NCBI GenBank assembly: GCA_907163375.1
Contig: CAJQUW010003226.1
Location: 62,001-126,000 of the forward strand
From: Prostheceraeus crozeri
Lineage: Eukaryota > Platyhelminthes > Polycladida > Euryleptidae
Direction: 5' to 3'
DNA: 64,000 bases
Shown here: piece by piece, positions 8,376 to 61,686 of the stretch
How the letters are laid out: every line of letters starts with the position of its first letter
How positions within the stretch are numbered: position 1 is the first letter of the stretch
Notes under the pieces: model-generated
Database searches by the model: none
Told to the model about the DNA's origin: nothing
Seen by the model: only the letters and a program-made list of their open reading frames with translations
Translations under genes and position numbers: made by a program

Positions 8376-8476
8376 TTACACATTGACTGTAGCCAACTTT
8401 TCGTTTGCGTTCGTCCTAGAAAGAGATCCTGGCTCCCGTACTTGAAGGTTGATGGCATCACTCCTTTGCGGTGTCT
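8376..8476 (-). CDS. Host gene exon H, terminal, with stop codon
   Basis: The acceptor TTTATACAG is followed by AG, which completes a Glu codon with exon G, then 32 codons beginning TPQRSDAINLQVREP and a TAA stop at 8378-8376. The protein ends LATVNV. The last three residues (V-N-V) fit a class II PDZ ligand pattern (inference only). No polyadenylation signal is obvious within the next few hundred bases. Confidence 0.65.
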
Positions 8477-8479
8477 CTG

Positions 8480-10600
8480 TATAAATGCACAAAGAATTAT
8501 TGCATGAAACACATGTTAACCAGTTTCCTGCATGAAAACTAGTACAAATGTTTCAGCTGAATGCGATATAACAAAAAGCACACAGACATTCAACATCATA
8601 AACTTAGGCCGACATATCGAGGATTCTTATGTGCAGCAATCAACCAGATAAAAGAGGTTTCAGATGGAAATATGAATATATGAATTATGCGCAACATGAC
8701 ACTGAAATCATAGACTAAAACTTACCTGGATAGGGACGTGAACTCTCATCAATCCTACAATAAAAAAAAGCAAAGCATCATCAATGCCCAGATCACTTTG
8801 CTCCATATGGGAGCTATAGAAATGGGTAAAACAAGGATAACAGGGACATCAAAGTAGAAAGGGAACATAATTGGATTGAATATAGACAGCATTTTCTCGA
8901 AGGTTTGATGTCTGTCGATTAAAGATCTTTCTGTTGTGCGACAAATACGTTAGAATTGACATTAAAACTGTATTCTACTTATTAAAATATATTACATGAA
9001 AAAGCTCAAACGGTTCATGTTTTGAAAAGTGAGAAAGTATGAACTATCAACGGTCGAAATATCATCATCATACAAACATAAATGAAAACTGAGCTGGCTT
9101 CTAACTGATGATTAAAGACTTAACTGCGACAAACTTGAGATCAGACATTGTACATCATCGCTTAAGAAATTTTATAACTTTGATACCAAGATACTCAAGA
9201 TGATAGATGTCATTCTCAACAGGAGTAATCATTTGAACCTCTATTTCAGTAATAGATGATGATCAAAATAAATGAATTCAATGTTACTGAAACACTTTGT
9301 ACTTCTCGTCGGAATCGGTTTATTTTGAGGCAATTTGATAGTACTCAGACAATTTTGAAAGCTTTGACGATCAGATAGAATATTAATCAAGAAGACGATT
9401 AGGAAGGCAACGTTATTGGTGCTGTAGCAATGAAACCCTTCAACCATCGTCAAGAATGAGTTCATGTATTAGATAATTTAGTAAAAACATGCAGAAGTTG
9501 AGAAGATGAAGTAAAGGAGATGGTGCCACAAAACATCCCGTTAGGAGAGGGTGACTAAAGAATGTAATTACCACTCGCAGGCAGCATCGCCAAATTGAGC
9601 TGAAATTCAATAATTAAACAATTCTGAACATGGATGCCTTTATAAAATGTACCAGCTACGAAGAATAATACTGTTAAGTTTTACAAATGCAGTAAAAACA
9701 GAAGCTAGCGATGTTACCAGTTTCTTGTTAGGCACTACAATTTCAAAGTTGGCATGGATCTAATGAAAATGCCAAATTAGTCTACAAATTTAGGTTTCAA
9801 CACGTTTTTAGAGCTGAAGAGGTGCTAGATATGTGAGCATCAAAATAATTCTTTTATAACTGAAATAGCTTTAGTTTTTGTTAGGTCTGACGTATGAAAT
9901 TTAATTTTTTTCTTTGAATGCTTTGGCGGTGCTAGCGCACAGGTGCAAGATCTTCCACAGTGCGGATTTCTTCTCGATTCTTTGGTCAGGTAAGTGCAGT
10001 CGGATAATCAAAGGAGTAGGTGTCTTTGATAGAGGCCTACTGGCCGTCATTCTCTAGAAATACCTCTTGATGTGCAAATGCAACATGTAGGAGTATATTA
10101 TAAATTGCTTCAATGAATATGCAGTGGTAAATGAAGTGAAGTCGCCTATATTGCAACTTTTTGTAGCCTATTTTTCTAGAGATGGAGTTAAAAGAAACTA
10201 AAATGTGCATTGTTAGATGAATTGAAAATAATTGTCAATAAATATAAAAAAATAATTAATACTAACTTGCGAACTAGTAAATAGTTACTAAAATTAAAGA
10301 CTGAAAATTAGAAATAATATATCAATATTTCGAATGTGTTTGATCTAAGTTTCAAAGTCATACAATTTCCCCGTCATTGTGTTTACTCAGTTCGTGAATT
10401 GAGCTTTTACATTATCATGTTTTACTTCATAATGTGCAGCGCCATTGGATTAGGATTTGCAAACAATAAGAAAGAAAATCTTGATGCCTATGGAGTGTTG
10501 CAGTCAGCGAAATTATGCATTGTCAATAACATTTCTAAGTTCATTCTAAGTTCTATCTAATTCATTCTAACTATCTATCTCATTCATCTATCTAAGTTCA
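8480..10600. other. Intronic DNA without recognised features
   Basis: Apart from the 29-nt exon at 8726-8754, I see only AT-rich sequence. The longest reading frames are short and carry no known motif. The last 80 bp before 10600 are low-complexity TCTA/TTCTAA repeats leading into a long inverted repeat. Confidence 0.5.
8726..8754 (-). CDS. Host gene exon G (29-nt microexon)
   Basis: This microexon sits between TTATTGTAG and CCAG|GTAAGT. One base completes the Gln codon of exon F; nine codons (IDESSRPYP) and one base follow. The first frame would hit TGA at once, so the phase is fixed by the neighbours. The long T-run before the acceptor and the perfect donor support it despite the small size. 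Confidence 0.6.
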
Positions 10601-11350
10601 TTCTAAGTTATATTCCATCGACATACCATGCTGTCACTTTCAGAGCGAACGACAGAATAATAGACAATGCAAGAGGTCAAATTCAGTTAAATCACGATCT
10701 TGATTCGCGGACATGGACATTCAGAGAAATTAGAAAGACATGGAAATAGAAAGGTTGATACAAGTGACAAAGCATAATACTGCTACATTTTTGAGTAGTA
10801 AGAGAGTAATTCTTTCTGTACACATAGCGTGGGTTTAGTCAGACCTACGAGCACAGCCTCACCAATTTCCTTCGGCACTTTTTCACAACTTTGAATGCAT
10901 TCTCTGACTCTTTGTGACCTCAAGTCAGATGATGTTGAGTGATGGCGGAAGCTGGAGGTCGTCTTGATCTTCGACACTTTCCCCCCTTTTTCACATCATT
11001 TCGGGATATGCTCCTTCACATGAGTCTCCAATGTTCTCTCCTTCTTCCACACATAGCGTTTGATCCGAAAGCGCAGTCTTTCGAGTATGTGATGAAGGGT
11101 CTCTAGAATGGAGGGATTGAGTCCTTTGGAGCGTTACCTTTCACTTCTCGTGCGTGGTACCAAGTAGTCACTTTCATGTGGTGATATGTCTTCTCAATAA
11201 TGGCTTTGATTTTCTTTACTTCGATGATTGAAGCTTCACCACTGTATTAGATCCCGAAACGTAACTCCATTTTCTCGACAGTGGAAATGTTTCTGGTGGT
11301 TTTAAAAGTGCTGTTGCACTTGTCAACAAACCAGTATGGAAAATCATTCT

Positions 11351-12357
11351 TGGACAAGATTGTTCTGCTCACCTTGCTCACCTTGTCGACCCTTGTCCCG
11401 CGTATCCCAGGGTAGGTCCAGTCCTATTTTTCCATTCCTTCCGGTTGTGGACCAGGGAGGCATCCACTCCTTTTGCCTTCATGTCGGCGGTTACTGTCGC
11501 TGTCCAGGTCTTCTTCGGGCGGCCTCTACCTCTTCTTCCTTCCACTTGCAGACGTGATGATTTCTTAAGGGGATGGCTCTCTCCGCGACGCTGCACATGA
11601 CCAAACCATGACAGCCTTCTTGCTCTTGCCACTTTTTGAATAGGGGCTATCTCCACATTAGATCTTATTTCTTCATTGGTCTTCCGGTCCAAGCGTGTGT
11701 AGCCCTGCATCCACCTTAGCATCCGCATCTCCGCCACGAGCAACTTCTGCTCATCTGTCTTGAGAGGGGCCCAGCACTCAGAACCATAAAGGATTGCTGG
11801 CCTGATCATAGAGGAGTATACTTTGCTCTTTATCTTCAGTGGCATCCTTCTGTCACATAGCACTGGAGTCAGTCTCTTCCATGTGTTCCAGCCACAACGT
11901 ACTCGATGTGCAACATCACCTGCGCTGGTCACCTCAGTATTGACCATGGACCCCAGATATTTAAAGCAGTCCACACTCTTCACCGGCTGACTCTGAATCT
12001 CTATAGTTGTTATTCTTGGGTCGGACGACAGATATTCGGTCTTGGAACGGCTTACCCTCAGGCCCTTGCTCTCAAATGCTCTCCTCCATGCTTCCAACCT
12101 TCGCTCTACATCTTGATGACTGCTTCCAAATATTACGAGATCGTCGGCGTAGAACATATCCCAGGGACCACCTCTTCTGCAATCTTTGGAGATTTCATCC
12201 ATTATTACGATGAAGAGAAAAGGGCCTTGATGTAGCCCAACCGAGACAGGAAAGGCACGACTTTCACCTTGTCTACATCTCATTGCAGTTGTGCTGTCCC
12301 TGTACCTGTCCTGTATTAAACGGATGTTATGTTATGTTAAATGGACAAGATTGTTCT
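11351..12357 (-). mobile_element. 5'-truncated RTE-like insertion with 16-bp target duplication
   Basis: The 16-bp sequence TGGACAAGATTGTTCT flanks the insert exactly at 11351-11366 and 12342-12357. The insert reads on the minus strand, starts in mid reverse transcriptase at the right end, and ends a few bases after the stop codon with two copies of GGTGAGCA. A 5' truncation, short tandem 3' end and target-site duplication together are the marks of target-primed reverse transcription. Confidence 0.85.
11378..12335 (-). CDS. Partial RTE-type reverse transcriptase, C-terminal portion
   Basis: An uninterrupted frame of more than 300 codons, entered in mid-domain. It reads VGLHQGP (RT motif B region), FYADDLVIFG with the catalytic YADD, YLGSMV, then the C-terminal region with MIRPAILYGSECW, EMRMLRWMQG, WFGHVQRR and GRPKKTW. 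The endonuclease and first RT motifs are absent, so the fragment cannot act alone. The frame is open, which suggests a fairly young insertion. Genuine coding continues upstream of the first ATG (12283) to about 12320, so that ATG is not the natural start. Confidence 0.8.
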
Positions 12358-13844
12358 CAGGAAGATAATTTCCTAATTGAAATGATCTGAACAGATTCTG
12401 CGCACACGGTCAAAACGCTTTTCACGATATTGATTATGCATTGTATTTGGCCATCAAACGTCATCGATATCTATGCGAAATGTCATCTTCTGCATTTACG
12501 CTCTTAACTTCTCAGTCTCGTGTCTAACCTGACAGAGAAAGGGCGAAACATGTCGTTGGAATTTTCTTGCTAAATATCAATACAAATTACAAGCAGGAGT
12601 GATTGTTGAGACTGTGAATCGTTTTAATCGACGTTTGATGATATCTTGATCAGCCTTCTATGATCATCAAAGATGGTTTGCATGCGATCTGAGTGTTGCT
12701 GATGATCACAGATGAACAAAGCTACAGTAAAATTTCTTTCGTTACTCTTGAACACCTGTAAATTGTAATTCTTGACATATTTCAGGACTTCAGTAACACG
12801 ATGCTCCATGACTTTTTTCTACTTTTTGCATGCGGCCCATTCTGTGGGCAGAATTGCTCAACTGGGTTTGACATTCCCTCGACAAATCTAGAGACATTGC
12901 TGTCTCTCCTTGTAATCGATAATTGAAAGCCTATAAATCAGTGCAAATGTCTAACTCCCAAAAAGCCCTCATCACATACTCGAAAGACTGCGCTTTATGA
13001 ACAAAAGCTATGTGTGGAAGACGAAGAGAATATTGGAGACTCATGCGAAGGAGCATATCCCGAAATGATGTGAAAAAGGGGGAAAGTGTCGAAGATCAAG
13101 ACGACCTCCAGCTTTCGCCATCACTCAACATCATCTGACTTGAGGTCACAAAGAGTCAGAGAATGCATTCAAAGTTGTGAAAAAGTGCCGAAGGAAATTG
13201 GTGAGGCTGTGCTCGTAGGTCTGACTAAACCCACGCTATGTGTACAGAAAGAATTACTACTTACTATTACTACTTATTACCTACTCTCTTACTACTCAAA
13301 AATGTAGCAGTATTATGCTTTGTCACTTGTATCAACCTTTCTATTTCCATGTCTTTCTAATTTCTCTGAATGTCCATGTCCGCGAATCAAGATCGTGATT
13401 TAACTGAATTTGACCTCTTGCATTGTCTATTATTCTGTCGTTCGCTCTGAAAGTGACAGCATGGTATATCGATGGAATATAACTTAGATGATGGTACATG
13501 ATTCTTTAATGTTTCATAGAGATTGTCGCATTCCGAAGGAGGCTGTAACTTCAATAAAATATTGACTCAAAACTTGCGGTCTGTGGTGAAGGTGAATGAT
13601 ATTAATTGTCAATTTTGTATTTCATAATTCATTCAATACAGGGAATATAAGGCGTTTAAAAATGATTAGTATTTGAATAATGAAGAAACTGAAGTTCAAT
13701 AATAGAAATATTAGTATAAATGGAGATGAAGAACAAAGATCTGGTACTAAACAAAATGTGCATAGCTTCCTAAACAAGCACCAGAATTTCAATGTTTCCT
13801 TTTTTGGAAATACATCAAAATAATAAGAAGCACCAGGGTTTCGG

Positions 13845-14050
13845 TGGCGTAGTCAAGCTCTACAACGGCACCGGACGTCTCCAACCCAAGACCTGTCGAC
13901 GCATAGTCGGGCCCACAACACGAGACCGACAATGAGACTTTCACAGAATGATGTACACCTCTGGCTACTAAGAAATTGCACTTCTGTCGAGGTCTACGCG
14001 GTACCTCCTCTTGTCAGACAAGAACAAAGAAAGCACATATGGATCCAATG
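13845..14050 (+). repeat. Possible tRNA-derived SINE
   Basis: TGGCGTAGTCAAG resembles an A box and AGTCGGGCCC, about 55 bases later, a B box. The stretch is GC-richer than its surroundings, as tRNA-derived SINEs are here. The match is weak and the 3' end is not defined. Confidence 0.35.
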
Positions 14051-14999
14051 GGAAGCAGACAGAGATTTTCGGTAAAATGACATTAATCTGTATTTCTGTC
14101 ATTAAAAGAGAAGTACTTCGTTAAGTGCAGAATCACCTCTAGGTCATGCTGGTCATGTACCTTTGTAAAAAGAAGCTTAACACATTTAAATTTATCAAAT
14201 CGTTTCTTTGTCATCATACACACACCATTCTGATTAAATTTTAGCAGAAACTTACTGTCTTTTTATACATTTTCGTATACATCACTGATCAGAGGCATAA
14301 GCACATGCAGATAGAAAATGATCTGAAGATGTTCCATGCTAAAAATTATGACATAGCTGATGCTTCCCATTTAAGACCTTTTTTTTACGAAGCATGAGTG
14401 GCAAATAGAGCCACGAAAATGTTCTCTATTTTTAGCGGACTGATTGAAGTCTCTGATTTAGTCCCTACCGGAAGCGCTCCTTGCGTTTAATCAGAGGTAA
14501 GTACAAATATTTCATTCTTCTAGAGTGAGGCAATTACTAATTAAAAGCAAGTATTTTAGTCAGACAAATTGGCCACAGTGAAAGGGTTTTCAAAAACTTC
14601 AACCCGCATCCACTTGGATAATTTCTTTTAACCTGGCTGGTAAGGGCAGAAACCGGGTAGAATTCGGCAGACGCGCAGATTCGTAGCAGCCATGGATAGG
14701 GTGCAGCCTCCTGCATTCTCCGAAAGTCCAATTTTCAGTTTCTTTTCCTGCAGAAACTCGTTCTACCGATCGGAAGAGATGACTCAACCACCTAGGTTTC
14801 AAGCCTCTAATATTCATCAATCAAGTGAAGTAACTGAATATTTCCGAATTGAACCAAAATTTTCTATATCAAAAGCACTTCTTCAGAAGTGTTTTAATGC
14901 TTCATCTAAGTATTTTATTGAAAAACAGGCACTTATAAAATAGCCATGCGCTTATAAGGGGAGAATTATTGAAAAACAATATTGAAGCTTTTACGTCAC

Positions 15000-15175
15000 T
15001 ACTCCCCATACTTGGGGCTTGGACAGTGCTGACATAGTCAGACTTATGGAGCGTTGTGGTACTTTATAGTTCGGATGCCCTTCCTGCCGACTTCCAATGA
15101 CATCTTTGGGGCTCGACCTCTGGACCAAAAGATCGCTAGGTCAAGCACTTAACCACTGTGCAACGGAGACCACAA
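15000..15175 (-). repeat. tRNA-derived SINE with GGAAGGGCATCC core
   Basis: From 15175 leftwards the minus strand reads an A box (GTTGCACAGTGGTTAAGTG), a B box (AGGTCGAGCCCC) and then GGCAGGAAGGGCATCC. The last motif also occurs at 44742-44760 in the 5' region of an RTE-like element. SINEs often borrow part of a partner LINE, so the shared block may mark that partnership (inference). Confidence 0.7.
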
Positions 15176-15667
15176 TATTGTACTTGAATTAAGATCCAAA
15201 ATTGTACTTTAATACTAAGTACACTGAATTTGAGGCGAGAGTGCATGTGTAATTTGTTCATCAAGATCTTTTCGTCCAACAGTTGCGTTTTCGGCTGAAG
15301 CACAATCTTAAGGAAGTCCACCATTTCCTTTAAAATCTAGATTAATGATTCGCAGTAGGTTGTGTATTGAGAGGAGATGAAGACCGGTAGATTGTGGGAG
15401 GTCTACAACGATTGCACGATTGCATTCGTTTCAGCTGCACTGTCGAATATCACTTTTTCTCGCAAAGTGACTGAATTCAGATGCATATAAAGCTTCAAGT
15501 CATAGCCGGAGCCGTGATATTTTCTGTCGACCACGGCTCCAGGCGACTCCAGCTCCCTCTGAAGCACACATCATACAGTACAGCATAACGGTTTTTCATG
15601 GATTTCAATATTCAGCCGAATGACAAGATGAATAATGCAGATTGTTTTCTAGCATCTGTTGGCAAGA

Positions 15668-15983: not shown

Positions 15984-16048
15984 TGTCGTCGCTCAGACCG
16001 AAGCGATTCCTCATGAAAATCCGTTTCGAAGGCTGACTGATCGACATG
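15984..16048 (-). CDS. Host gene exon F
   Basis: This 65-nt exon is flanked by a strong acceptor (CTATTTGCAG) and donor (GACA|GTAAGT). In phase 0 it gives 21 residues beginning HVDQSAFETDF, then two bases CA that complete with the G of exon G to make Gln. One other frame has a stop and the remaining one does not fit the neighbours. It is charged and has no recognised motif. Confidence 0.65.
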
Positions 16049-17780: not shown

Positions 17781-17789
17781 CGAGTTCTA

Positions 17790-20249: not shown

Positions 20250-21105
20250 TAAGGGCGATCGAAAACAGCATTGCAAGTAGCTACATTGTGTAAGACCGCA
20301 CAACCAAGGATAATGCGAGAACACTTTGCTGGGGAAAATCATAGTCTTAGAAAGACACCGAAATCTTGATTTAAAAATATCAATTCAACGTTCGACACAG
20401 GCTCGCCCTTTGTAAGAGCTTTATTAAAGTTGTCCTCAGCATAATTCAGTGGATTATTGCATGGTTTCGTCAATGACAATAATAGGGGATAGGCGGAGTC
20501 ACCTAAAACATAACAGTTCGATAAATTATCGATATGATTCCATGCGCCACTGTTTTTTCACAGTATATAAGCATCATGACTACTTCCACGCCATCTTGGG
20601 CTGATGTCGAGTATCTTCGTAGTCGAGTCGCATACTAATTGACAGTTGATCGAATGCCAGCCTTTCCGGTTAACATAAACGCTTTCAGTGACTGCAGGTG
20701 CCAGAATCCGGATCTGTGTACCGTCAATACATGCAACAATTCTTGGCATTCCACAATAATGGCAAAATCGTTCTTTCGACAATCAAATCTCCTCAGACGT
20801 AGGCCAGCTTATGTAGCGATGATGTATTTCACAAAGTGCACTTGATATTGCGTGAACCACACGTCCGGAAGTCATCTCTGATATACCATGAAGGTCACCA
20901 AGTTCACGCATGTAATCACCTTCTCCATAGTATCTACTCTATGATAGTATCGAAGTCCAATGGACAGTCGTTGTTCAACAGATAAGCTGTTATTTCGACG
21001 AGTTTGATGACACAGGAATGGCTCTAGTTCGCACGAAAGATCTTTCACAACACTCCTTGGTAAACGGTACCGATCGACGAAGTCAGCTTTTCAGAAGTCG
21101 TCGGC
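20250..21105 (-). pseudogene. Decayed PIF/Harbinger transposase (HARBI1-like)
   Basis: On the minus strand the HARBI1 order is readable: FVDRYRLPRSVVKDL and RNNSLSVEQRLSIGLRYY (N-terminal), then VACIDGTQIRI with the first catalytic Asp, VNRKGWHSINCQLVCD, SSHDAYIL with the second Asp region, VLGDSAYPLL, the acidic end of the DDE domain and CAVLHNVA. At least four frame changes or stops lie between the blocks. It is unrelated in detail to the neighbouring Harbinger element at 21.6-23.8 kb. Confidence 0.75.
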
Positions 21106-21806
21106 TTGACGTTTCGAAATGTCCATCAGCTTCTACTCGCCACATATCTCGATGAAATCCTTTTCGAGATGAGAGCTGTGATTTCGGTGTACAAGTTTTG
21201 TTGTATACAGCGAGTAAACAGCACCTTCATTGCTGTATGCTACAGAAGACGAAATGAACCACTGTTTAGCAAACAGCGTTTTATTGGTGTTCATTTTAAC
21301 AACGAAGTTACAGCGAGGTTACAATGAACTTTTAACAGTGGTTTGTTGATATCGAAAATATCGCAAACAGTAAACGTCAGGCTTAGCTGCGGTTCTTGTT
21401 CCCCGTCCCAGAATGTTTTTACACAGCAAGGACAGAATTCCCAAGACATTGAAATTACAAGGTGTATATGCATATAAATACTAATGTAAAGACTGCAAAC
21501 AAGTCTCTATTGGGGAGACGACACGACATCTGGCTACTGGAATGAGCGTATACATGGGTCGATTGCACCATCGTGGAATAAGTCTTATTCCTGGAATAAC
21601 ACAAGGAATAACTTACTTGCATTGCACCAACGAGGAATAAGCCTTATTCCGAGATTAAAGTTAATCTCTGAATAAATTTATTCTTAGAATAATAATTTTC
21701 ATTGCACCAATGGAGAATAGGGAATGAGTGAGACTAACTCGCTGATTTAATCCGTTGTTTTTATTCCTGTGCAACAGCCGGTTTAAAAGGTGACGGAGGG
21801 CTTTGT

Positions 21807-22872
21807 TTGTTGGAAAAGATGACAACTGGCATTGCACGCTTCAATGATATCGCAGTATTTGAAGAGGCAGGGTCTCAACGATTTTCTTATCGACGACGAA
21901 GGGCCGTATACCGGAAAAGACTGGATCCGTTCGGTGCTTACAGCGATGCTGAATTTCGACAGCGATATCGGTTCTCTAAAGAAGGGGTAAACCACATTTT
22001 GAGCCTTATCGAAGTTCAATTGCGGCCATCATCCAGAAGAAACAGACCTGTTTCTGCCATCCATCAACTACTTATCACGTTGCGATTTTATGCAACCGGA
22101 TCCTACCAGAAAACTGACGGCGATCTTTTCGGCGTGCATGAATCGACTGTAAATCGGATCGTACACAAAGTGAGCAAAGCAATCGCCTCTTTGTCTCGTT
22201 TAAAAATTATGTTCCCGCAGCAGTCGATCAAGGCAGAATAAAATCATCGTTTTATGAAATTGCAAATTTTCCCGAGTTGTTGGCGATGGCACGCACATAC
22301 CAATTCAAAAACCAAATCGTCATCATGCCGAACTGTACCGGAATAGGAAATCTTATTTCTCTATTAACGTTCAAGTCATGATGGAGCCAGATTTCCCAAT
22401 TCATGACATAGTATGGAAATGGTATGGCAGCGCCCACGATTCTCGTATTTTCGAGTGCTCTACCTTGTATATGAAGTTAGAAAACATGACGAACTCTTGG
22501 ATACTTGGAGATTCTGGCTATCTATGCAAACCCTTTCTTTTGACGCCATTCCTTCGTCCTGCTAACCCTCACGAGGAACGGTTCAACCGATCTCACAAGA
22601 AGACTCGAAACCTCATCGAAAGAGGGTTCGGAGTGTGGAAGCGAAGGTTTTCTATCTTACGATATGGACTGAGAATGAAAGTGGAAAGATGCCCATTGTC
22701 ATTGTGGCTTGTGCTGTTTTGCACAACATTGAGATTGAATTGAACGAGGATTGTTTTTGCCTGACGCTATTGAAGATCAAATTGATGACCCATTAATTAT
22801 CAATGTCAACGATGCTCTTGGAAACTCTGTGCGACGGCGTATTGTTCGTGATTTTTTCGCAAGTCAATCATG
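21807..22872 (+). pseudogene. HARBI1-like transposase, broken by frameshifts
   Basis: The N-terminal half is open (21807-22241): FRQRYRFSKEGVNHILSLIE and the helix-turn-helix VHESTVNRIVHKVSKAI. The catalytic half continues in other frames with VVGDGTHIPIQKPN (two residues short of the usual GAIDGTH), YFSINVQV, GSAHDSRIFE, ILGDSGYLCKPFLLTP and RNLIERGFGVWKRRF (DDE domain), then AVLHNIEIELN and RRRIVRDFF at the end. Breaks lie near 22241-22280 and between 22690 and 22760. DDE transposases cut and paste the element with the help of the Myb-like partner; this copy is probably dead. The first ATG in frame is at 21820; TTG at 21807 is not a likely start. Confidence 0.8.
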
Positions 22873-23152
22873 ATGGTCTATCATGGCGCATCAGTTGCAA
22901 TTGCTGTTTTTGAAATTAATAGACGAATTAATTAATTGGAAGCATTTGGTTTTTGTTATTTGTCTCCGTAAAAGTTAAGAGAAATTTTAACATAGTATTT
23001 TAATTCGGTTTAAAAAAACAAGCTTCATTCTTTAAAAATCATTCAATTTATTGAGATAGTACTGTTCTTTCAACTTCAACACCTTCATCTTTGCCTTGTG
23101 CTCTATTGTTGCCATGCGCAGGAACTCTCTTTGGAAGGGCGTCATTTCTTCT

Positions 23153-23533
23153 TCATCCTTTTCTTCTTTTTCGGCTCACGCTCAGCTGATGATGGATACC
23201 GACAAACCTCTCACTAACAGGTGAAAGTGTCAAGGGATTCTGTGGCAAACCGCCTCCAGTCCTCCGAGCTTCTCTTTTGTATTGTGCGTCCTTCTTCTTG
23301 GCGTCGATCTTCAAGCGCTTCCACAATAATTTCAAGTTCTTCGCATCTCTTGAAGTTCCACTTCGAGTCTTGAATTCGCTTTCAATTTTCTTCCATTCTT
23401 TCTCCTTCTCCTTAACACAGGAAGCGTCAGTTTTCTTGGACTCCACTATCTCTCCTCGTTTGCCGGAGAGCAGGTCGAGAAAAATCTCAATTTCCGCTGT
23501 CGTGAAGTTGGGGCTCCTCTTGCGTCCACTCAT
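23153..23533 (-). CDS. Harbinger Myb/SANT-like DNA-binding protein
   Basis: An intact 126-codon frame with ATG at 23533. FTTAEIEIFLDLLSGKRGEI and the later WKKIESEFKTRSGTSRDAKN and LKLLWKRLKIDAKK are the three-helix Myb/SANT-like pattern of Harbinger ORF2 and NAIF1-type proteins. The C-terminus is short and basic (SVSRKRRKG), as in a nuclear protein. In active Harbinger elements this protein brings the transposase to the nucleus and to the ends (family knowledge). It is open while the transposase is broken, so it could in principle still be made. Confidence 0.75.
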   Translation of the reverse strand: MSGRKRSPNFTTAEIEIFLDLLSGKRGEIVESKKTDASCVKEKEKEWKKIESEFKTRSGTSRDAKNLKLLWKRLKIDAKKKDAQYKREARRTGGGLPQNPLTLSPVSERFVGIHHQLSVSRKRRKG

Positions 23534-24813
23534 TTCCGCTTGTCTGTTTCGAAAGAAAGTGGAATCATTGACCGATTATTCACGCACTGAAAACCGTTAG
23601 TTATCATAGCAACGTTTGAAAAATGACCCACAAATGACGCAGTCAATGACGTCATTGGCGCGTGTTTTTCAAGGGCGGCATAACTCGCTGGAATAGTTAA
23701 ACCTGCAATCAGCTCCGTTGGTGCAATGACAGTTAGCTCCACGGAATAACTAGTCTGAGATTAGGATTTATTCCTGGAATAACTATTCCACGATGGTGCA
23801 ATCGACTGAAAGAGTTCACATGAAATCGATGAAAACACTTTCTGTAATCACTGTGTCACATGGGCACAAAATGTCAGAAGCCTTTTGCTTGAAAGAGACT
23901 CAAAATTGCATGAAAGATATAGTTCATTTCCATTATCATCAGATTTGTGAACTTTAATTTTTTTGAAGAAATTTGACCCGCTGCATAATTTATATAGAAA
24001 AGCAAGTGCAAAGGGCCGATTAATATATTATAAAACGAAGTGACAGTTAAAATCAGAACACGAGGCCTTTCGTCCGCTCTAAGTCGTGTGCTGACGCGGA
24101 ACTGGTGTTAATCACAAGAACATAACTAAATAACATGCAGTGTGAGACAAGGACAATAACATCGACGGTAAGTGGACAGCAAGCAATGCTATTGCCATGG
24201 CAACCCAAGGCCAATCACGAACTGCATCTGGATGCACAGGTCAGGAGCAATCGCTTGAATGGCTAGAGCCTCCATGAAACAAAGCACACTTCTGACGTCG
24301 GATCTACACAAAATTCACATCCGTTGGCAAGTAAATGGCGAGCAATAGAGCTCTCGGGCAGACTTAGATCGAGGAGGAGCACTACTTCCTTCCAACAACC
24401 TCTTGGGTATATGCTCCTTGACCCGTTCACCCAAGGATCTTTCCGTTCTGCCAATGTACTTGCTACTGCAAGTGCACTCAAATTAATAAAAGACTTTAGA
24501 ATGAGCAGAAACAGGAAGTTTATACTTGGGCGAACTAGCCGGAACACGAGAGGTCGAAAATGTAACAACCGGTTTCACTACCGGGACACACTTAAGAAGA
24601 CCCTGAATAGAACGCTTTACAAACTGAGCTGTTCTATCACCAATAAAAGGGAGCTTCATATAAACAATCTTTCGCTCAGGAAAGGCTTGTCCTCGGGCAC
24701 AGTCAAATACCTATCAACAAAAAGCATTCCTATGCTATTATCGGGAAAAATATGTCTCAACGCATGTATCTCACGATCAATAGTATCGGGAGAACAAATG
24801 CGATAGCTGCGAC

Positions 24814-31802: not shown

Positions 31803-32167
31803 CTGATGATCCAATTCAGCATCACCTTGAGTTTTATTTTTCTGCTTCGAATGGCATCTATTTGAGTCTCTATTGTCCAGTCCGTTTTCAAGTAATTCCG
31901 ATTTTTTCTCTTGCGATGATACCTTGATATTGTATTGCAACTCTGTATTGACCAGCTGAGTAGCTGACAGTCCCTCAGAGTAACTGACAGTGCTATCTTC
32001 GATTGGAGAAATCGCCACCGCTTGAGATCGCCGTCGTCTCGGTGGAATTTCAGGATCATTATTGATTGCAGCATTCGGTGGCTGAGGAGCAGGACCTTTC
32101 TTATGGGAAATCAATTTAGAAGTCGAAGAGGACTTTTGAGCAGAAGACATTTTAGCAGACCTTTGAT
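31803..32167 (-). CDS. Host gene exon E, proline-rich
   Basis: This is the longest exon (365 nt), from acceptor CGTTTCAG to donor CATCAG|GTATGG. It reads two bases plus 121 codons and ends in phase 0. A proline-rich segment (HKKGPAPQPP, then EIPPRRRR) is followed by a Ser/Thr-rich stretch and a Lys/Asn/Gln-rich tail. The PxxP-like clusters suggest SH3 or WW binding by analogy with adaptor and scaffold proteins (inference). The internal ATG at 32150 could be mistaken for a gene start, but the open frame and splice acceptor just before it argue for an internal exon. Confidence 0.7.
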
Positions 32168-36286: not shown

Positions 36287-38913
36287 ACATCAGGGTGAAG
36301 TGAAAAAATGTTTTTTCGAATTTGAAAATGCTTGGGGTCGCTATCCACGTCGACACGAAACTTAGGATGTCACACAAATTTCATCGATTTTTATTGATGT
36401 TGAGAGGTCACACACCGAGCTGGAACCTGATTGGCTGCGCGTAAAATCGATTTTTTTCAAAATCCAAAATCCTACATAGTTTGGGGTCTAGAATGATTGC
36501 ATAAAACTGTAGAAACAACATACTAAAGTTTGAGACGATTTAAACAATTACTTCTGGTCCCACATTGAGGCCAAAAAGTCCCAAAAATTGGGGAGAAAGT
36601 CTGAAATTTTGTGATTTTTTTAGAATTAGCTATACTGAAGATCAAAATACGACAAAGCTTGGGGTTTGAAATGATTGCTTGAAGTCGTAGCAACAATATA
36701 CTAAAAATTGGAATGATTTACACAAATTTTTACGGTCCTACACCAAGGTAAAAAGTCACGCGGAAAAATACAAAAAATCGATCTTATAAAAAATATTTTT
36801 ATGAATTTCACTGTAAGTAGCGTTTGAAATTGCGTGTAAACCCTTCCTATTAGAAAATATGCACTAGAGATCACTTATGACATATACTACTTGTACCAGT
36901 ATTTGCATTTATTTAAGTATTAATAACAGTTGATTTCCGATCCCACTTCAAAAACTAATCATCACATGTTTTTTTAATAATATATACATGCTGGCTGTTT
37001 TTATTTGTAACATTCAATACACTAAATGCGCAACTGAAATACAATGCTTTCATAAAATTTTTTTAAAACTTGTTAGCTACATGTAAGTCCAGAGATGATT
37101 TTCCAAAGATGAACACTGTTACTGCCTAAAATCTTATTTTGCATTAAATATTTGTGTCTTCTTTCGAGAAACTATCTTAGTTTGTACCACCGCATTTCGG
37201 CGAGCACGTCCACAGACCGATGTAGCTGCCTCTGTTGTCATTTTGACGCCGCGCTCGACAGACTGTGAGTGGCAAGGGCATTGCACACGCGTATGTTCAA
37301 CAAGATTATGTGGAGAACTCTCCTTCGTGAGTTCACAAATCGTACCGTCAGGTACCATAGATAATATCCAAGGAGAGCATCTCTGTGATTCGGTAGTCCA
37401 GTCGATCATTTCATGATAAGTATTTGCCGAGAGGTTTGTTTGTGGTACTTGTAAAGTACGTACTTGAGAGACTAGTACACAGTTTTCCCTGGCACTTGTA
37501 TTCTTCAATATACCAAAGTTCTAATGTGGCCTTCAGCATCATAATCATGGAAATATTTCTTGATGGGCGAAGTATCCGTTTTCTTTAAGTAGGCCCTACT
37601 GGATCAACAATTTCACGCAAGTAATGCGGCAAATATCTTGATTTCTCTACCAAAGAGAAAAAATGTCTTGCTCCGATAGTACAGAAAGGCATACAAGTCT
37701 CAAACCTAACTGGAGCGTATGGGGTCAAAATGTATTTTTTCTGAGGACAACACGGTTTTCTGTCGCAACATACATACAGACACAAAATGCGGCTTCCCAT
37801 CGTCAACCATCGAGTCAGACTCAAGTTTCCTTGGTCACGATGGGCTAAATTGGTGGAGCAAGCACCGTCCGATATACCCGACATATATCCCACAAAAACT
37901 TTTGATCAGTACTCAATCTATCTCTAACATGCGACAAGTCAACATTGAAATTGAACTCAACTGTTTCGAAATGAGCAACACTTTTCACACTCTTTTAAGG
38001 ATTTGCCGAGAGGACCGCTAAAAGAGCCTGAACCAATGCTAGCTCCATCTAACTGCAAAAACAAAATGACGGAGAGGAAGCTCGTTGATATGGAGCATAC
38101 ATAAAAGCCACTGAAAGGGGCGTTGTAACTCTCGCTCAATTAATCGAATGACGCCACCGTTTTGTCCGGTATTTACATTTGTTGAAAGTACTCGATAACA
38201 AATTGAAAAGGAAAACGTAGGTTTCGCAAATTCAAAACATAAACACATAAAAAAAAATCTTTCATAGAATAAAAACAGTAAGGCCTACACTGAAAGACAA
38301 GAATCAAGGAAATTATGATGGGTATAAACAACTGCTTTGAACACTTCATAAACTTGCGTCGATGAATTTGATTATTGGCTTTATCATCGAAGGAGTGCAC
38401 AAGTATCTAAGAGCTCATCCATTTTTGTATTTTTCCGCGGGACTTTTTACTTTGGTGTGGGACCGTAAAAATTTGTTTAAATCATTCCAATTTTTAGTAT
38501 GTTGTTGCTACGACTTCAAGCAATCATTTCAAACCGCAAGCTTCGTCGTATTTTGATCTTCAGTATAACTAATTCTAAAAAAATCACAAAAATTTCAGAC
38601 TTTCTCCCCAATTTTTGGGACTTTTTGGCCTCAATGTGGGACCAGAAGTAATTGTTTAAATCGTCTCAAACTTTAGTATGTTGTTTCTACAGTTTTATGC
38701 AATCATTCTAGACCCCAAACTATGTAGGATTTTGAATTTTGAAAAAAATCGATTTTACGCGCAGCCAATCAGGTTCCAGCTCGGTGTGTGACCTCTCAAC
38801 ATCAATAAAAATCGATGAAATTTGTGTGACATCCTAAGTTTCGTGTCGACGTGGATAGCGACCCCAAGCATTTTCAAATTCGAAAAAAACATTTTTTCAC
38901 TTCACCCTGATGT
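36287..38913. mobile_element. Long-TIR DNA transposon, 2.6 kb
   Basis: Inverted repeats of about 490 bp (36287-36776 and 38421-38913) begin ACATCAGGGTGAAGTG and are roughly 93-95% alike. The interior of about 1.6 kb holds a decayed minus-strand gene. Within the arms two related sub-blocks recur (a TGTAG-AACA-TACTAAA word at about 170-bp spacing), so each arm is itself internally repetitive. No clear target duplication is visible. It sits in the host intron between exons D and E, next to a dead RTE C-terminus. Confidence 0.75.
37134..37900 (-). pseudogene. Decayed transposon gene with CHSQSVER block
   Basis: The minus-strand frame 37508-37134 reads YHEMIDWTTESQ, then CPCHSQSVERGVKMTTEA, VCGRARRNAVVQTKI and a basic tail. 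I recall a similar order (INW, CHTQAVER-VK--TEA, VCG, R--I---SR) from uncharacterised repeated proteins of insects and cnidarians; this is memory, not a search. A second minus frame (37893-37585) lies upstream and may be its N-terminal part. The placement between 490-bp TIRs suggests that it is the element's own transposase or accessory gene (inference). Confidence 0.45.
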
Positions 38914-47667: not shown

Positions 47668-47890
47668 CAATGATTTGTATGGTGATTTCACTTTTATCAT
47701 TCTCATTAAAAGTATCTTTCTTCGTATTACTACTGATATTACTCAGAGTTGAAGTACAAGGATTGTCATCTTTTCTTGTAGAGGGAGTGCATTCGACATT
47801 ATTCTTTGGTGTGGTGGTTGATGGAGTGGAGAATGGAACAGAGTTCTCGGGGATACTAGGATGATCCGCCTCGTCTTCAATGAATGATAC
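47668..47890 (-). CDS. Host gene exon D
   Basis: This 223-nt exon lies between ATGTTTCAG and ATTG|GTAAGT. Only phase 0 is open, and it fits exon C. The 74 residues start VSFIEDEADHPSIPE and are dominated by Ser, Thr, Pro and Asn, as in a disordered region. It ends with a single G that combines with the AT opening exon E to form an Asp codon across an intron of 15.5 kb. That split codon is good evidence that the two exons belong to one gene. Confidence 0.7.
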
Positions 47891-53539: not shown

Positions 53540-56167
53540 TTGGAAAACAGCCATAAATCATATGTGAATCCTACACCCAGCATTTTATTGACGAATGAGC
53601 GTTCTATTTTTCATAAATTTGACGAGTTGTGTGTACATATTAGCATCCTACGCCCTACTGTTGTGGTTATAACTGAATCTTGGCTAAATCCTGACTACGA
53701 TGACAGTTTATTCTATATATCTGGATATTCTTTGATGAGAGATGATCGAATGAATCAACGTGGTGGAGGAGTGATGGTATGGGTTCTGAATACATATGAA
53801 ATACAAGTAATTGATTGCGTCAGAGCTAAACCCAAGGCTATCAATTGTGTCCAGCTTCTTTCGAATAGTAAAATTTTTCTTTGTGCTGTTTATGTTCCTC
53901 CTGCTCTTAGTGCAGATGAAAATCGTGGAATAATTGATTTCTTATCAGAATCAATCGATGATGTTCAGAACATAGCTGTCAATGTTAAAAGTATATTATG
54001 TGGAGATTTTAACAGATTGAACGTGAGTTTCCTAACGGACTTTCATGACTTGCATAATGTGGTTACCTCCCCAACAAGAATTGATGCTATATTGGATTTA
54101 GTTTTCGTCGAAGGTAGCATTTTGGAAACATTCACGGAGCCAATAATCTATCCCCACTGTCATCTTCTGATCACAATGTTGTATTTGTAAGGGGATCCGC
54201 ATGTTCCCAAGACCCAGTTCAGCGTTTCGTGACTTTATTTGACTACAGAAAAGAATATCTTGGTAATTTCTTGAATACGATGGCAAACGTTGATTGGCAT
54301 GAGCTATACTCCAGTGAGCAGAATATTGATATCAAGACTTCAAAGTTTTATGAACTCCTGCAACCGGCCTTACGAGAAATTCCAAAAAACACAGTCGTTT
54401 TGACAGACCGGGATAAGCCGTGGATGACGCCTTTGACAAAGTATATCATTCAAAAACGCTGGGACGCCTTTAGAGCTGGTAATTACGAATTGTATGAGCA
54501 TTATAAGATCAAAGCAAAACTAGAAATAGATGCAGCAAAACGAGCCTGGAGTAAACGGTCACTTGATGATACACGAAGTATCTGGAACATTGTAAAGCAG
54601 TACAAAGGCACGAATAAAGCCCCACTGAGAAATTGTGATATATCAGCCGATGATTTAAATGACTTTTTTACGTCAATTTTCAGTGACAAAGTTAATTCGA
54701 CACCTATTGCTGGTGATTCACCGTGGTGTAGCTTGATTGAACCGAGCGAAATCGAGGAACTGCTTCAAAAACTGCCAAATAAAGGCGAAGGGTCGGATGG
54801 TTTTCCGAGCAAATTACTGAAAGTCGGGTCATCATATCTCTGCTACCCTTTATGTCATTTGTTCAACACTTCATTATTGTTGAATACTTTTCCGGAATTG
54901 TGGAAAATGGCAAAAGTTGTACCTGCTCCCAAGTGCCTTCGCCCATCTGTTGCTGATTTTAGACCAATTTCGGTACTACCTGTAATCGCCAGAATTTTTG
55001 AGCGGCTTATTTTGAAGCGCATGTATCCAACTTTAATTGACCTCTATGGTTCTAATCAGTATGGATTTCTCAAAGGTAGCAGTGCCGTCTATCACATAAT
55101 AGCCTTATACGACGACATATGTAAAAAACTGGATGATGCAACTAATAATGCAGTATCGGTTGTGAGTTTTGATTTATCAAAGGCGTTTGATACTGTCCCC
55201 CATCATTTGTTACTTGAAAAGCTTATTGAGATTGGCATTCATAGAGGCTTCATTGCCTGGTATAATTCGTATTTGGAAGGCAGGAAGGAATTTGTAAGCT
55301 ACAACAACCAAACAAGCTATATCTCTAACGTGACATCTGGACTGCCGCAAGGAGCTATTTTGTCACCGTCTCTTTTTGTGTATTTGTTGGAGGATTGATG
55401 ACAATTCATCCTACTTGATGACTCTACATGATGACAATTCGATTTTCAAATATGCCGATGACATTTTTCTTTGCCTAACTCATAAGATCTCAAACAGCAA
55501 CGAGATTAGGAATAAGGAGGAGCTTCAGCATGTTGTTGGATGGGCGACAGAAAAAGGCCTTTCCTTAAATATGACTAAAAGCTGTCAAATGCTGATTAAA
55601 ACTAAAAGTACATCTTCCGTCAGCCCTCTTGATTTTTCTCTCCCATCTCGGAAGGATTTGAGTATTTTGGGTATCCAAATTAGTGAATCACTATCATGGA
55701 CCGCGCATGTAGATGCTAGATTGCGTAAAGCTAGCAAATTTCTCCATCTTCTAAGGGTACTGAAGAACATTATTACCAAAGATGAACAGGTTCGTGTATA
55801 CCAATGTCTTGTTCTTGGTACTGTGAGTTATGGCAGCACGGTGTATGTTGGCAGCATTTTGAAAAAGGATAAGCGTAAGAACAACAAATTCGTGCGTCGC
55901 TGTCACTGGGTTATATGTGGAAAGGAATGCAAGGAGGAGGACTGTCTACCTGATTTTTACCAGGCACAGGAAAAGCAGGCACTCAGACTGTTTTCGAAAG
56001 CTTTGAGTTTTGTTGACCATGTGTTGCATCCTATTTTGCCTGAACGTTTGCCAAGTGGTCGCGTCAGAATTCCAAAATGCATTACCTTGAGACATCAAAC
56101 TTCCTTTGTGCCGTTTATGAGCAAAATGTTTAATTCCATGTTCTCAGGTTCTCATCGTCTGACTTAA
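53540..56167 (+). pseudogene. ORF2 of second L2-like element, two frameshifts
   Basis: The endonuclease (53540-54190) has TNERSIFHKFDEL, ITESWLN, GGGVMVWV, CGDFNRL and, after a one-base shift near 54155, PLSSSDHNVV. RT follows (54229-55398) with PWMTPLTKY, FRPISVLPV, YGFLKGSSAVYH, SFDLSKAFDTVPHH (motif A intact) and SGLPQGAILSPSLF. After a second shift near 55390 it reads FKYADDIFL, SLNMTKSCQML and LGIQISESLSW to the end at 56167. Apart from the two shifts there are no further stops. TTG, not ATG, is at 53540, so the natural start is uncertain. Confidence 0.8.
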
Positions 56168-56223
56168 ATCTTGACTTTATTTGGTACTTCATAACTTGTA
56201 ATTGATGATTTTTAATTTTGAGA

Positions 56224-56262
56224 AATAAACGCTTTCTATTCTATTTCTATTCTATTCTATTA
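56224..56262 (+). terminator. Polyadenylation signal and (TTCTA)n tail
   Basis: AATAAA at 56224-56229 is followed by repeats of TTCTA/TTTCTA, the 3' end of the second L2-like element. Confidence 0.75.
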
Positions 56263-56269
56263 TCTTCAC

Positions 56270-58080
56270 CGCCTCCCACATCACATCAAAATCAACGCAA
56301 GTCATCCGTGGTGATTTTGAGCTTTGGAGACCACTTTGGAGATATATCTTCAGATATCATATGTCTTCAATTTAGGAATACATAATTAGCCAACAGCTTA
56401 TTAGTACTATACTATATGTCAATCAGTTTCGCGTAGATAGATTTTCACATCAGACGTGTCAATGGTGCACATTTGCTATGGGACTACATTCAGAGATATT
56501 TAGACAAACTGCATTATCTAGTTTGAAATGGCTGTGTATTTTCACCATTAGTGAACCACCTTTATATATAACAACATAGTACAACACAACAAAAGGTCAA
56601 GCTAAATAAGTTATGGATATCAGGTGGTTGACAAGAGACTGTGTATCAAATGCACCAAATGTTGAAGATACTTATCTTCTACAATTAATGTTTTGATTAG
56701 TTAGGTTGGATGAACCACAGATTAGCCTACAATTCAATGGGTAAGCTATTAATTATTGGAAATGTGCAAAATGCATGGCAGCAATAAAATTCATAACTGT
56801 ATACGTGACATATCTACCTCTAATGTTTTAAAGATGTTGACCTTACTACATGAACTTTTAATATCATGGAGTTACTATTTGCATTACTTACAATTCAATG
56901 CTTTACAAGTTTACAGGACAGAGAATGGCTATACGATTCTGTCGGATATAGACAGGGACACTAGTTGATAAATCCCGAAGGCTTAAGCTCGAAAAATTTA
57001 TCAAACAATTTTACAAGCCTCTAACTACACCTTTTCCCATTCAACTTTGATAGAATTCCTCTCAAATTTCTGAATTGGTGGTGGCAACCAGCTGCAGGGA
57101 ATCTGAATCAGAATAAGAATGGAACTTCATAATGTAACCAGCAGTACAATAGAACCACAAGACGGATGTGTATGCACTCAGCAATACGAGGCCACTGCAA
57201 TGAGTCCAGAGAAGGTGCGACATAATCGTTGGAGTGGGTATAGAAAGCATGTGAGTATTGACACTATGAAATATGCGAATATCTGTATGCAAATCGCAAA
57301 GAAAATGCATGTATAAGCATACTTATCTACATCCTTTAATTGCACGCATGTTTTCACATTGCAGATCTTTAACAAAAAAAGATATAATTATGATCGTGAT
57401 TTTGAGCATTCTGATTTTCACATAGACTGCGTCATCTGCACGATATTTACCCGCTGATGCTGTAAAACATTGCATCCACTCCGCTTTTCAAGAATGTGCG
57501 TCCTTCTCCACATGTAAGTAGCTACCGTTAGAAATTCTTGATCACGAGGATGCATTAGAAAGTCTAACAACGATAGCTCACTATCTCAACTCAGAAACAC
57601 CTTAGCAACCGAAATCAGTACTTAACTTTACTTCCAATGGAATGAAGTAAAGAAAAGATGAGGAATTATGCATGACACTGTTAGCAGTGATCAGAGGAGC
57701 TCTTCACGTAAATCCTGATGTCCCAACTTATGTCCTAACGCATTTTCGACAGATTGGTATGCTATTATCACATAAAGCTTATGTTAAGTTTGATATAATA
57801 ATCGAAGATATATTCATTATAAATATCCACCGTAATGCTGACATATCTTAGTGATGAAATTGCAATTGATAATCGAGAGAAATTCACGAATATCACTATG
57901 ATTTACATTTACGAATGACAGCGTCCGTATAAGTTACAAATTCAAACACATATACGACGATTATTCATCGCTTGAAAAAAGATAAGCAGCATCATATTGC
58001 AGTATTTACAGATTGCTGTTATCTGGTTTAAATTTTTGTGATAGCCAATGAAATCATAGTGTAAATTTTATAAAGAAGTG
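56270..58080. other. Intronic DNA without recognised features
   Basis: AT-rich sequence with short frames on both strands; no element ends or known motifs were seen. Confidence 0.5.
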
Positions 58081-58088
58081 TAACTTAC

Positions 58089-58138
58089 TGCAAGAGGAGA
58101 TAATACTGTATTACTGGAGCACAGCATCCGATCATTAT
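58089..58138 (-). CDS. Host gene exon C
   Basis: This is a 50-nt exon between acceptor CCTTTCAG and donor GCA|GTAAGT. It begins with two bases that complete the codon left open by exon B (T+AT, Tyr) and then reads 16 codons, NDRMLCSSNTVLSPLA, ending in phase 0 as exon D requires. The short length makes the reading weak alone; the match at both ends supports it. A 155-bp hairpin element lies only about 60 bp upstream of its acceptor. Confidence 0.55.
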
Positions 58139-58196
58139 CTGAAAGGGAACGATCTGATTGTCATGACGAAATTACACCAATCGAATTTGGTAGCAT

Positions 58197-58351
58197 AAAT
58201 ATCAAAGTGAGGAACCCAAGTATTTGTATATTTCGAACAGCTCTTTGGTTATCGTCAGAAGGTCACAATGACCAAAGAGTTGGTCGAAGTATATAAAGGT
58301 TTACAACAAAAAAACATTTTACAAATACTTGGGTTCCTAACTTTGATATTT
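58197..58351. repeat. 155-bp hairpin MITE
   Basis: AAATATCAAAG and GAACCCAAGTATTTGT open a 31-bp left arm mirrored at 58321-58351 with two mismatches. The interior also folds partly (CTCTTTGGT / ACCAAAGAG). No gene is present; it lies 59 bp upstream of exon C. Confidence 0.65.
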
Positions 58352-59245
58352 AAAAAATGACCAAGGCCTCTTCACATATAGAACTTGGTAACATTTTAAA
58401 GTGCATTATTCTCAAGATTAGGGCTTTTGACAGTAATGGAAAAAAGCCAAACAATGCCATCGATAAGTCAGCCATTGAGATATATGGGTTAGAATGAAAA
58501 TTTACACATCGAATAACTACAAATTAACATCAGTGGACAAACTCAGAATCAACAGACAAACATGTCATCTGAACAGCAGCTTCAGCTTTTACTCTCTGAG
58601 AATCTTTGGTGACTGAAATTCACTTCCTCAGGAAGATACTGACTCCTGATCGATGAAAGTTTCTAATCGAACGTTAAAGATTTGCAATTTTATCATCACC
58701 TTTCCTCAGTACTGTTAGTAGTAAAAAGTAAGTAAAAAGCAGCAATCGCTCAAAATAACAGAAATCAAATCTGCATTTCAGACATAAATGATAAGTAACT
58801 TAAATATGAGGTTGCGATTTGCTGTTGATTAGAAAGTTAACAAATGCAAAGTCACATAGCTCTACGTGCATGCAAACATATATTGATATAATAATTTTGA
58901 GTTAATGATTCCGTTTCAGCGAAAATGGTTTCGATACCAGTTTCTTTCCATTATGGAATCTGCCTACAATTTTTTCGCAAGACAATATCTTCAGCAATTT
59001 AACACAAGTAGAGCAAGGCAGAAAAAATTTTCTTTTCTTTGTTATATTGCGGAAGGAATTTCGGACGAAAAAACTAACAATATTTATCATGCGGAAATCG
59101 AATAATTATATTTTAACATCTACATGTAGAATACAGTAAAGCTCTAGAAAGGTCTAATAACTTTCGTAAACAATACATATTGTAAATCAAAAAGAAAATG
59201 TTAGTGTAATATAGTAAATGGAAAACGCTTGAGAGTGAAACTTAC

Positions 59246-59393
59246 AAAAAAGATTGGACTTTTTGGATAAATTTGGACGGGGAGAGTTGAAATGCTTTGG
59301 TTTATTTTCATGGAACGCCATTTCAGTAGCGACAGTTTCCTCCTCATAAACAGGTTGTCGGCCATTTTCGATTGAAGACTCAGAATCTGTGGA
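59246..59393 (-). CDS. Host gene exon B
   Basis: The exon opens after TTGCTTAG in phase 0, which fits exon A, and closes at TTTTTT|GTAAGT with one leftover base. It gives 49 residues beginning STDSESSIENG, with a tyrosine in PVYEEE that could be a phosphorylation site (inference), and ending in a basic stretch with SKKSNLF. An alternative AG six bases downstream would keep the same frame. Exon length and reading frame agree exactly (148 = 49x3+1). Confidence 0.65.
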
Positions 59394-59399
59394 CTAAGC

Positions 59400-61590
59400 A
59401 AGACGCAGCATTTGTGATAACAGGACGAGAGAAATGTGACTTTCTAAGTACATGCATATTCTAAAAGCAAATTACATTTGAAAATGTGCAATGAACAATC
59501 ATTTTTAATCATAATAATGCCCGTACCCAGAAGACTAGACTAATTCAGTAGCATGCAGAAACAAAAAAAATGATCAGTACCGGCAGACAACATAAATTGC
59601 AGCGTGCTTAAAAGTGAATGTGATTCATGAAAGACGTTGATTGTTTGTTCCTGTTTCATTTTTTTTAAAGTAATCATCTACGGCTTTAAGATATCATCTA
59701 TCATTTAAGGTTCGTATAGAAGACCTTTGTGGCGGTAAGTAGGAATATTCATCAGCATAAAGTGTTTCAAGGAAAGTCACACAACTTCAGACGTGTAAGA
59801 TTGACAAAAAATGGACACTGGTCGGAATTAGTTGATGAATTAACGTTACCGATGTCCAACTGATGGGGATTCAATTCTTACTGCAAGTGAAACAGATTAT
59901 TCACGACTCTTTTGGCTAGTGAGTGAAAAGTAGCTATCGCAGAGAGCTCCAATGAGATTGTTCTTCCTTCTGAATCCGTGGAGATAGCCAGCCATCTCAG
60001 CTCAGCCCGGATTGCTTCCTAAATCTAGAAATTAGGTTTTAGAGGACTTTGAGTTACATATTGAGGAGTCGATGCATTTTGGTAAGACAAAGGGGAATCT
60101 GTGAATGCTAAAAGGTCGCTTTTTTGAATTCGCACTGGTGTAAAGAGTTACATGACAATGAGGATGAGATAATTCAGCTACATTGAGTGCTTTGATAAAA
60201 GAAAAAGGCATCTAGCTTTTGCAGGGATTGTAATTCGTTGACAGTCAAATATTTCGCGTTCTTTAAAGGGGCTTCCACAATGCTTTGACCTCATACGTAA
60301 AAGAAGAAACTAGCTCTAAGAAACACTAGGAAACAGCAGCTGAAACGTCAAAAGACGCCTGGAATTCAATTTAACGAATTAGATCAGTTATTCGACTTGA
60401 GCGTATTTGTACAATGTACAATGATTTGATAAGGAAAGTTTTATCATGACCGCGCTATTCCTTATATAGAATTATACAATAAAATGTGAATAACATCCAG
60501 TGATATCCACAGTAAAAACTAAATGTATTACAACATGGCTACTCGGCTAGGCGCTGATATTTCAATGTTGCAAGTTCTGAAAAAGAAGCAAATTAGTGAA
60601 ACATGCAATAGTTGTAGATCCTTACACGGTGGGGTGTGCTGTAGGATTTTGTATCAAAAAGATTCTATAATTGAAAATTTTACTAAGTGCACTGACATGT
60701 TACCTAGCCATTGTTAACTCCTGGAAGCCGCCATCGCTTGAATATCGTTGTCATGTCAACGAACCTGCTTTTTACTTTGCATCCAGTTTGGATACATTTA
60801 GCTTTTAGTTCATCGTGTTGAACAACATAGGTCCGATAACATAATCATGTACTTTGTTATTCACATGATGTATACTGAACTCATAATGCAATATGTATGG
60901 CTTTCCAAATTCTGCAAATAAATCGGTGCATGCCTGCTTTGGAATACAAGAGTATTTAGTTCTAATAAGCATGAGACCTATGTTGCATACATCGTTCACT
61001 CAATTTCTGTTTCTGACTCGATAATAGAGAATACCAAGATTCCTGAATCCAATGTTTGAAATTAAACTTATCACAGTATTATCTCTAGCTGCAACTGATA
61101 GTTTGGGCTGTCACATTCATTTAACTGTTGAATTACTATGTTGATTATCAATATCCATTATTAAACAAGTACTTTCGAATACATTCTACTTCTATTTCAA
61201 TCTAGCGCAACAAACCGATCCAAACTGGAATGATAATATTATACAATATTATCATCAGGAATAAAATTTTCTTGCAGCATCATTTGAACATGTTTCGTGC
61301 ATTGTTATCAAATTTCATGTTTGCTTCAGTATTCATCAGCAGTGAGTGATCCATAAAATTGACGATCAATAATCTTCTGCTATCCTTCACCATCACAGCA
61401 CAATCATCTGTGTAGGCCAATCCCATTATACAGATGACATAAAATCAATCCTTCTGGACATTCACATTTACAGTTTGTCGTTTACAAGTTGCACACTATA
61501 CATGCACATTGTCCGAAATTGCTATGCAAATGCTATGATCCCATACTCGTATTGCACATTCTGCGAACGAAATAGAATTCAGCTGTGATA
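59400..61590. other. Intron between exons A and B, no recognised features
   Basis: About 2.2 kb of AT-rich sequence. Frames such as 60523-60717 (plus) are short, lack context and match nothing I know. Confidence 0.5.
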
Positions 61591-61595
61591 CTTAC

Positions 61596-61686
61596 TTCTT
61601 GCGTGCTTTCATCGCTGTACTCCGGAAGACTTTCAACAGCCCTGTTGAAGACATCATCATTTTGCGAGAAGGAGGGAGAGTGCCAA
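61596..61686 (-). CDS. Host gene exon A (most 5' exon supported)
   Basis: The exon runs from an ACTTTCAG acceptor to a GAA|GTAAGT donor. Only one frame both stays open and matches the next exon. It starts with the third base of a split codon and gives 30 residues beginning WHSPSFSQNDDVF and ending EYSDESTQE, finishing in phase 0. The acidic, Ser-rich composition matches the later exons. No domain is recognised. Upstream exons must exist, because it begins mid-codon and has no start codon. Confidence 0.6.

Follow-up and report, generated by a model that had tools for sequence, protein, structure and literature searches.

In Drosophila ananassae, genes on the Muller F element have larger coding spans than their orthologues (median difference 32,500 bp), owing to larger introns (PMC5555453). 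The candidate gene described herein, which is located in a window of 64,000 nucleotides (the whole stretch of DNA that was analysed), resembles those genes in having small exons that are far apart, LINE-rich introns and a coding span of tens of kilobases. Orthologues and expression are reported for the D. ananassae genes (PMC5555453), whereas the chain of exons presented here is known from sequence alone. An earlier note on this DNA had proposed a split minus-strand host gene. Our follow-up finds strong exons for which this is the best reading, but the argument from codon phase proves weaker than was claimed, and two of the exons are doubtful.

A second class of interest comprises disordered tails and scaffolds that carry SH3-type proline motifs together with a C-terminal PDZ ligand. 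The peptide predicted from the exon chain is similar to members of this class in its low hydrophobicity, its basic proline-rich stretches and its VNV terminus, from which binding is predicted only. It is unlike them in that no domain, membrane segment or relative was found for it.

Reconstruction of the exon chain

The chain was rebuilt as eight open stretches bounded by AG and GT, which run on the minus strand from 61686 to 8376 and end with the stop codon TAA. The coordinates 8376, 8754, 15984, 32167, 47668 and 61686 come from the earlier note. All remaining borders are our reconstruction, as are the exons at 59393-59246 and 58138-58089, which were chosen as the pair that best matches the earlier account. 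The splice matrices and codon model used for scoring are generic ones that were made for this analysis and not trained on this organism, and they were applied to a copy of the window in which 19,290 bases (about 30%) had been masked by hand as elements.

Two strong candidate exons, each with one open frame, are located at 47668..47890 (223 nt, phase 0 to 1, 26.1 bits) and at 31803..32167 (365 nt, phase 2 to 0, 27.6 bits, hydrophobic fraction 0.18). They join in phase (47668 to 32167), and the second carries the proline-rich segment that had been described previously. The microexon at 8726..8754 is only 29 nt long (phase 1 to 1, two open frames), with an acceptor (11.3) and a donor (12.9) that each score above about 99.9% of sites. 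At the upstream end of the chain, the exon at 61596..61686 (91 nt, phase 1 to 0) reaches a total of 23.2 bits with an acceptor of 7.7 and a donor of 8.2, and has two open frames and a hydrophobic fraction of 0.23. The candidate exon at 15984..16048 (65 nt, phase 0 to 2, hydrophobic fraction 0.19) scores 16.2 bits in the chain frame and ranks second among 11 candidates compatible in position and phase with the gap from 31803 to 8754, behind a 23-nt exon with a score of 16.3. The candidate last exon at 8376..8476 (101 nt, acceptor 6.6, codon score 4.2) provides the stop codon and the protein end LATVNV, in agreement with the terminus given earlier. Its other frames are open too, and among the stop-ended exons listed for 6500-8680 it has the highest splice-plus-codon total. 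The minus strand of 6500-8400 contains a single AATAAA or ATTAAA, at 7368, which is 1 kb past the stop.

The two reconstructed exons, and the joins they make, are doubtful. The first, at 59246..59393 (148 nt, phase 0 to 1, hydrophobic fraction 0.20), has an acceptor of 3.6 that is only in the top 24% of all sites and a donor of 4.6 that is in the top 7%. An alternative acceptor 7 nt further on, at 59386, scores 6.8 but breaks the phase, and thus the previous description of all splice borders as good does not hold. The second, at 58089..58138 (50 nt, phase 2 to 0, codon score -0.9, hydrophobic fraction 0.38), is the weakest candidate exon of the chain; no other candidate that passed our thresholds suits its gap and phase.

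With all eight exons in place, phase is consistent at all seven junctions, four of which split a codon (T/AT, G/AT, CA/G and G/AG), just as had been reported, and six of the eight exons are indeed shorter than 150 nt. The donor sequence is GTAAGT at six of the seven junctions, and GTATGG after 31803. The joined peptide runs to 356 residues with no stop in frame. The AG/GT borders and the single open frame that the exons form together are in keeping with spliceosomal splicing, and a similar-scoring chain exists on the plus strand too.

We consider it somewhat likely that the gene is real and the chain is wrong, such that exons 59393, 58138 and perhaps 16048 do not belong to it, or that others are missing. 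Position 61596 joins 47890 directly and in phase when the two doubtful exons are omitted, 59393 depends on the poorer of its two acceptors, 58138 does not pass the composition test described below, and 16048 has the competitors already mentioned. Furthermore, a stretch at 40321-40190 fits in phase between 47890 and 32167; it was left out of the chain on our judgement that it is unlike the other exons. However, the hydrophobic fraction of 59393-59246 is as low as that of the strong exons, which favours its retention. The exact eight-exon chain, as given above, is rather unlikely to be correct in full.

Phase agreement and exon scores compared with chance

Phase agreement alone is weak proof of a gene, because phase-consistent chains arise easily, including on the other strand and in shuffled sequence. 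A consistent open path is available in 96 of 2187 junction-phase rotations (4.4%) before any choice of exons is made. A chain finder operated without a limit on exon number yields absurd chains and served as a control only; at its loosest setting it linked 53 exons on the minus strand and 51 on the plus strand, compared with a mean of 42.7 in 25 shuffles. The earlier assertion that agreement by chance is unlikely was therefore overstated. At three settings, the chain-finder scores were 278.3, 180.9 and 119.5 for the minus strand and 194.6, 110.2 and 54.1 for the plus strand, versus maxima of 171.2, 94.3 and 45.5 in 25 shuffles. Both real strands beat the shuffles at all three settings, the minus strand by more, and therefore exceeding the shuffles is not specific to genes. 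The eight-exon chain has a total of 159.4 (summed by hand), compared with a mean of 134.2 and a maximum of 152.6 in 60 shuffles. The best eight-exon chain on the plus strand totals 156.1, and the best on the minus strand, which uses other exons, totals 178.8.

Single exons constitute better evidence than phase agreement. A score of 24 bits or more is reached by four exons of the masked minus strand (32167, 8754, 47890 and 1047-795) and by none of the plus strand. Of these four, 1047-795 is not a chain member and is flanked by two copies of a repeat of the window. Exons of this strength occur at a mean of 0.07 (maximum 1) in 60 shuffles and 0.27 (maximum 2) in 60 local shuffles, and the reversed strands contain one and two. 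At a threshold of at least 26 bits, the minus strand retains three exons, all of which are chain members (32167, 8754 and 47890), against none in the 60 shuffles, a mean of 0.13 (maximum 1) in the local shuffles and one per reversed strand. By a rough estimate, about two ORFs as long as the largest exon are expected in such a window.

These numbers bear on the proposal that the chain was merely picked by chance out of many candidate exons. The ease with which phase-consistent chains are found, the plus-strand chain of nearly equal total and the strong exons in the reversed strands are all compatible with chance, but the excess of exons at both thresholds over the two sets of 60 shuffles speaks against it, and we judge such an origin to be improbable.

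Composition and relatives of the predicted peptide

In the chain frame, the hydrophobic fraction is 0.18-0.23 in seven of the eight exons, compared with about 0.43 in shuffled exons of similar length. For each of these seven, the chain frame has the lowest hydrophobic fraction of the three, although in exon 8476 the values are 0.22 versus 0.23 only. The fraction of 0.38 in exon 58138 is ordinary (36 to 50%), and for the 9-residue exon 8754, low hydrophobicity is not unusual by itself (11 to 17%). In a test that was devised after the fact, none of 5000 random chains was as low as 0.21, the minimum being 0.315. Low-hydrophobic open stretches, when stop-ended ones are included, number 44 on the plus strand versus 30 on the minus strand, and thus low hydrophobicity is non-specific. 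A hydropathy of 0.383 over 352 whole-codon residues, versus a boundary of 0.427 at its net charge, places the peptide among predicted disordered sequences, and together with the low hydrophobic fractions this bears out the disordered appearance noted earlier. The peptide includes the basic proline-rich stretches KKGPAPQPP and PEIPPRRRR, and its C terminus is VNV.

The joined 356-residue peptide is without a Pfam match at E values up to 10, and so is a 290-residue version. The previous statement that no family can be assigned thus stands within the collections searched. The only match in a search of the PDB was SemD (two chains, E 0.0095 and 0.94), across a stretch beginning at the motif KG.APQPP, which we read as a low-complexity resemblance of the proline-rich stretch. 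The 121-residue exon peptide has no relative in genome_contigs (bacterial and archaeal) or in viral_contigs, and since these are not eukaryote collections, that result says little about a eukaryotic gene. When the three minus-strand frames of 8374-64000 were searched with X at stops, four Pfam matches were obtained at E values up to 1. Two are below 0.001 (a DDE transposase and a reverse transcriptase), and the others are weak, namely a Myb-like domain that adjoins a transposase element and a ComK match below the cut-off that we take for chance. Joining 32167-31803 to 16048-15984 in the other open frame of the latter gave only a Pfam match at E 0.14, and this version was dropped. A text search of the literature for peptide strings matched only 'atvnv', in work that is unrelated by title.

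The proposed chain might instead combine exons of at least two different genes, or the remains of a decayed gene, that have been read as one. The intron from 31803 to 16048 measures 15.8 kb and is bridged by phase only, and no Pfam domain ties the parts together. However, low-hydrophobic composition is common to both sides of this intron and the joined frame is free of stops, and we regard a composite or decayed origin as having little likelihood.

Transposons in the introns and elsewhere in the window

The window is about 38% G+C and has no Rfam match at the gathering score and no tRNA by ARAGORN. Ten of its large ORFs were scanned: at E up to 0.001, seven match a family of reverse transcriptases, endonucleases or transposases, and the other three match nothing. 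Masked elements are present in four of the seven introns, where they make up 18 to 67% of intron length, in keeping with transposon-expanded introns, and the exons are thus scattered among transposons, as had been observed. No inverted repeats flank the Tc1-like ORF within 61200-63600, and exon 61686 may sit in the outer end of that element.

With about 30% of the window under the element mask, and many elements here absent from Pfam, the strong exons could conceivably be coding pieces of unrecognised transposons and not host exons. Against this, self-BLAST within the window revealed no overlap of the chain exons with repeats and no second copy of them, the peptide is without a transposon domain, and good splice sites interrupt it. 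We find this explanation improbable.

Several elements of the window deserve separate description. A PIF/Harbinger-like element occupies 21558-23806 on the plus strand, with a DDE_Tnp_4 transposase ORF flanked by terminal inverted repeats, which are imperfect and about 40 nt long, and a weak Myb/SANT-like ORF on the minus strand inside it. A second DDE_Tnp_4 match is located at about 20728-20285 on the minus strand. The region 10602-13488 is a long inverted repeat, whose arms of about 500 nt are 92.6% alike and enclose a minus-strand ORF for an RTE-like reverse transcriptase; the retroelement may have inserted into a fold-back element. Another long inverted repeat, at 36287-38913, has arms of about 490 nt that are 97.8% alike. 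Neither of its two inner ORFs matches Pfam at E up to 0.1, and one of them presumably resembles a transposase-like protein. At 1533-2285, inverted repeats of 205 and 144 nt are nested; they are 97-99% complementary and would fold into a long hairpin. A sequence directly beyond the last exon, at about 8110-8165 on the minus strand, looks tRNA-derived by eye and may be a SINE; ARAGORN reports no tRNA in it.

The reverse transcriptase ORF at 11378-12331 has a relative that is 40% identical at 20907-21842 of NZ_CP104070.1, the same record being found in both genome_contigs and plasmids. Two other transposon ORFs have no match in viral_contigs. The record is named as an Alicyclobacillus fastidiosus plasmid, its gene table lists nothing but a chloramphenicol-resistance gene, predicted twice, and its replicon is typed as IncFIA. 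It may be the record of a cloning vector that carries an animal insert.

Proposed interpretation

Splice-site quality, open frames, phase, composition and the transposons in the introns are direct observations, and they lead us to consider that the strong exons probably represent the 3' portion of a single, ordinary spliceosomal gene in a nuclear genome of the animal type, as judged from the splice sites and the types of elements. This is the best reading for exons 47890, 32167, 8754 and 61686, to which 16048 and 8476 are added by position and composition. The gene structure is of a known kind, and there is little unusual about it. The 5' part of the gene probably extends beyond base 64000. 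We infer that transcription runs through more than 50 kb, with the exons joined as described and the transposons removed along with the introns, the length of which would have resulted from growth by transposon insertion and not from function.

The exons in the window would encode a long disordered protein tail. Because the basic proline-rich stretches are of the SH3-ligand kind, and VNV is of the hydrophobic-x-hydrophobic PDZ-ligand kind, the tail, if the gene is real, might perhaps be a flexible docking region for SH3 and PDZ partners. This tentative assignment, in which binding is predicted, is the weakest step of the proposal. It is a more distant prospect still that the locus is a lineage-specific gene, encoding a disordered docking protein, that gene callers would miss; its exons would have moved more than 50 kb apart, and its microexon of 29 nt carries the strongest splice pair here.

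One lesson is that agreement in codon phase is, by itself, poor proof of a gene, as phase-consistent chains are easily found in long AT-rich sequence. If the gene is real, it would illustrate how tiny exons and disordered sequence can let a gene escape gene callers, and it would be one more host gene that is kept working as transposons enlarge its introns.
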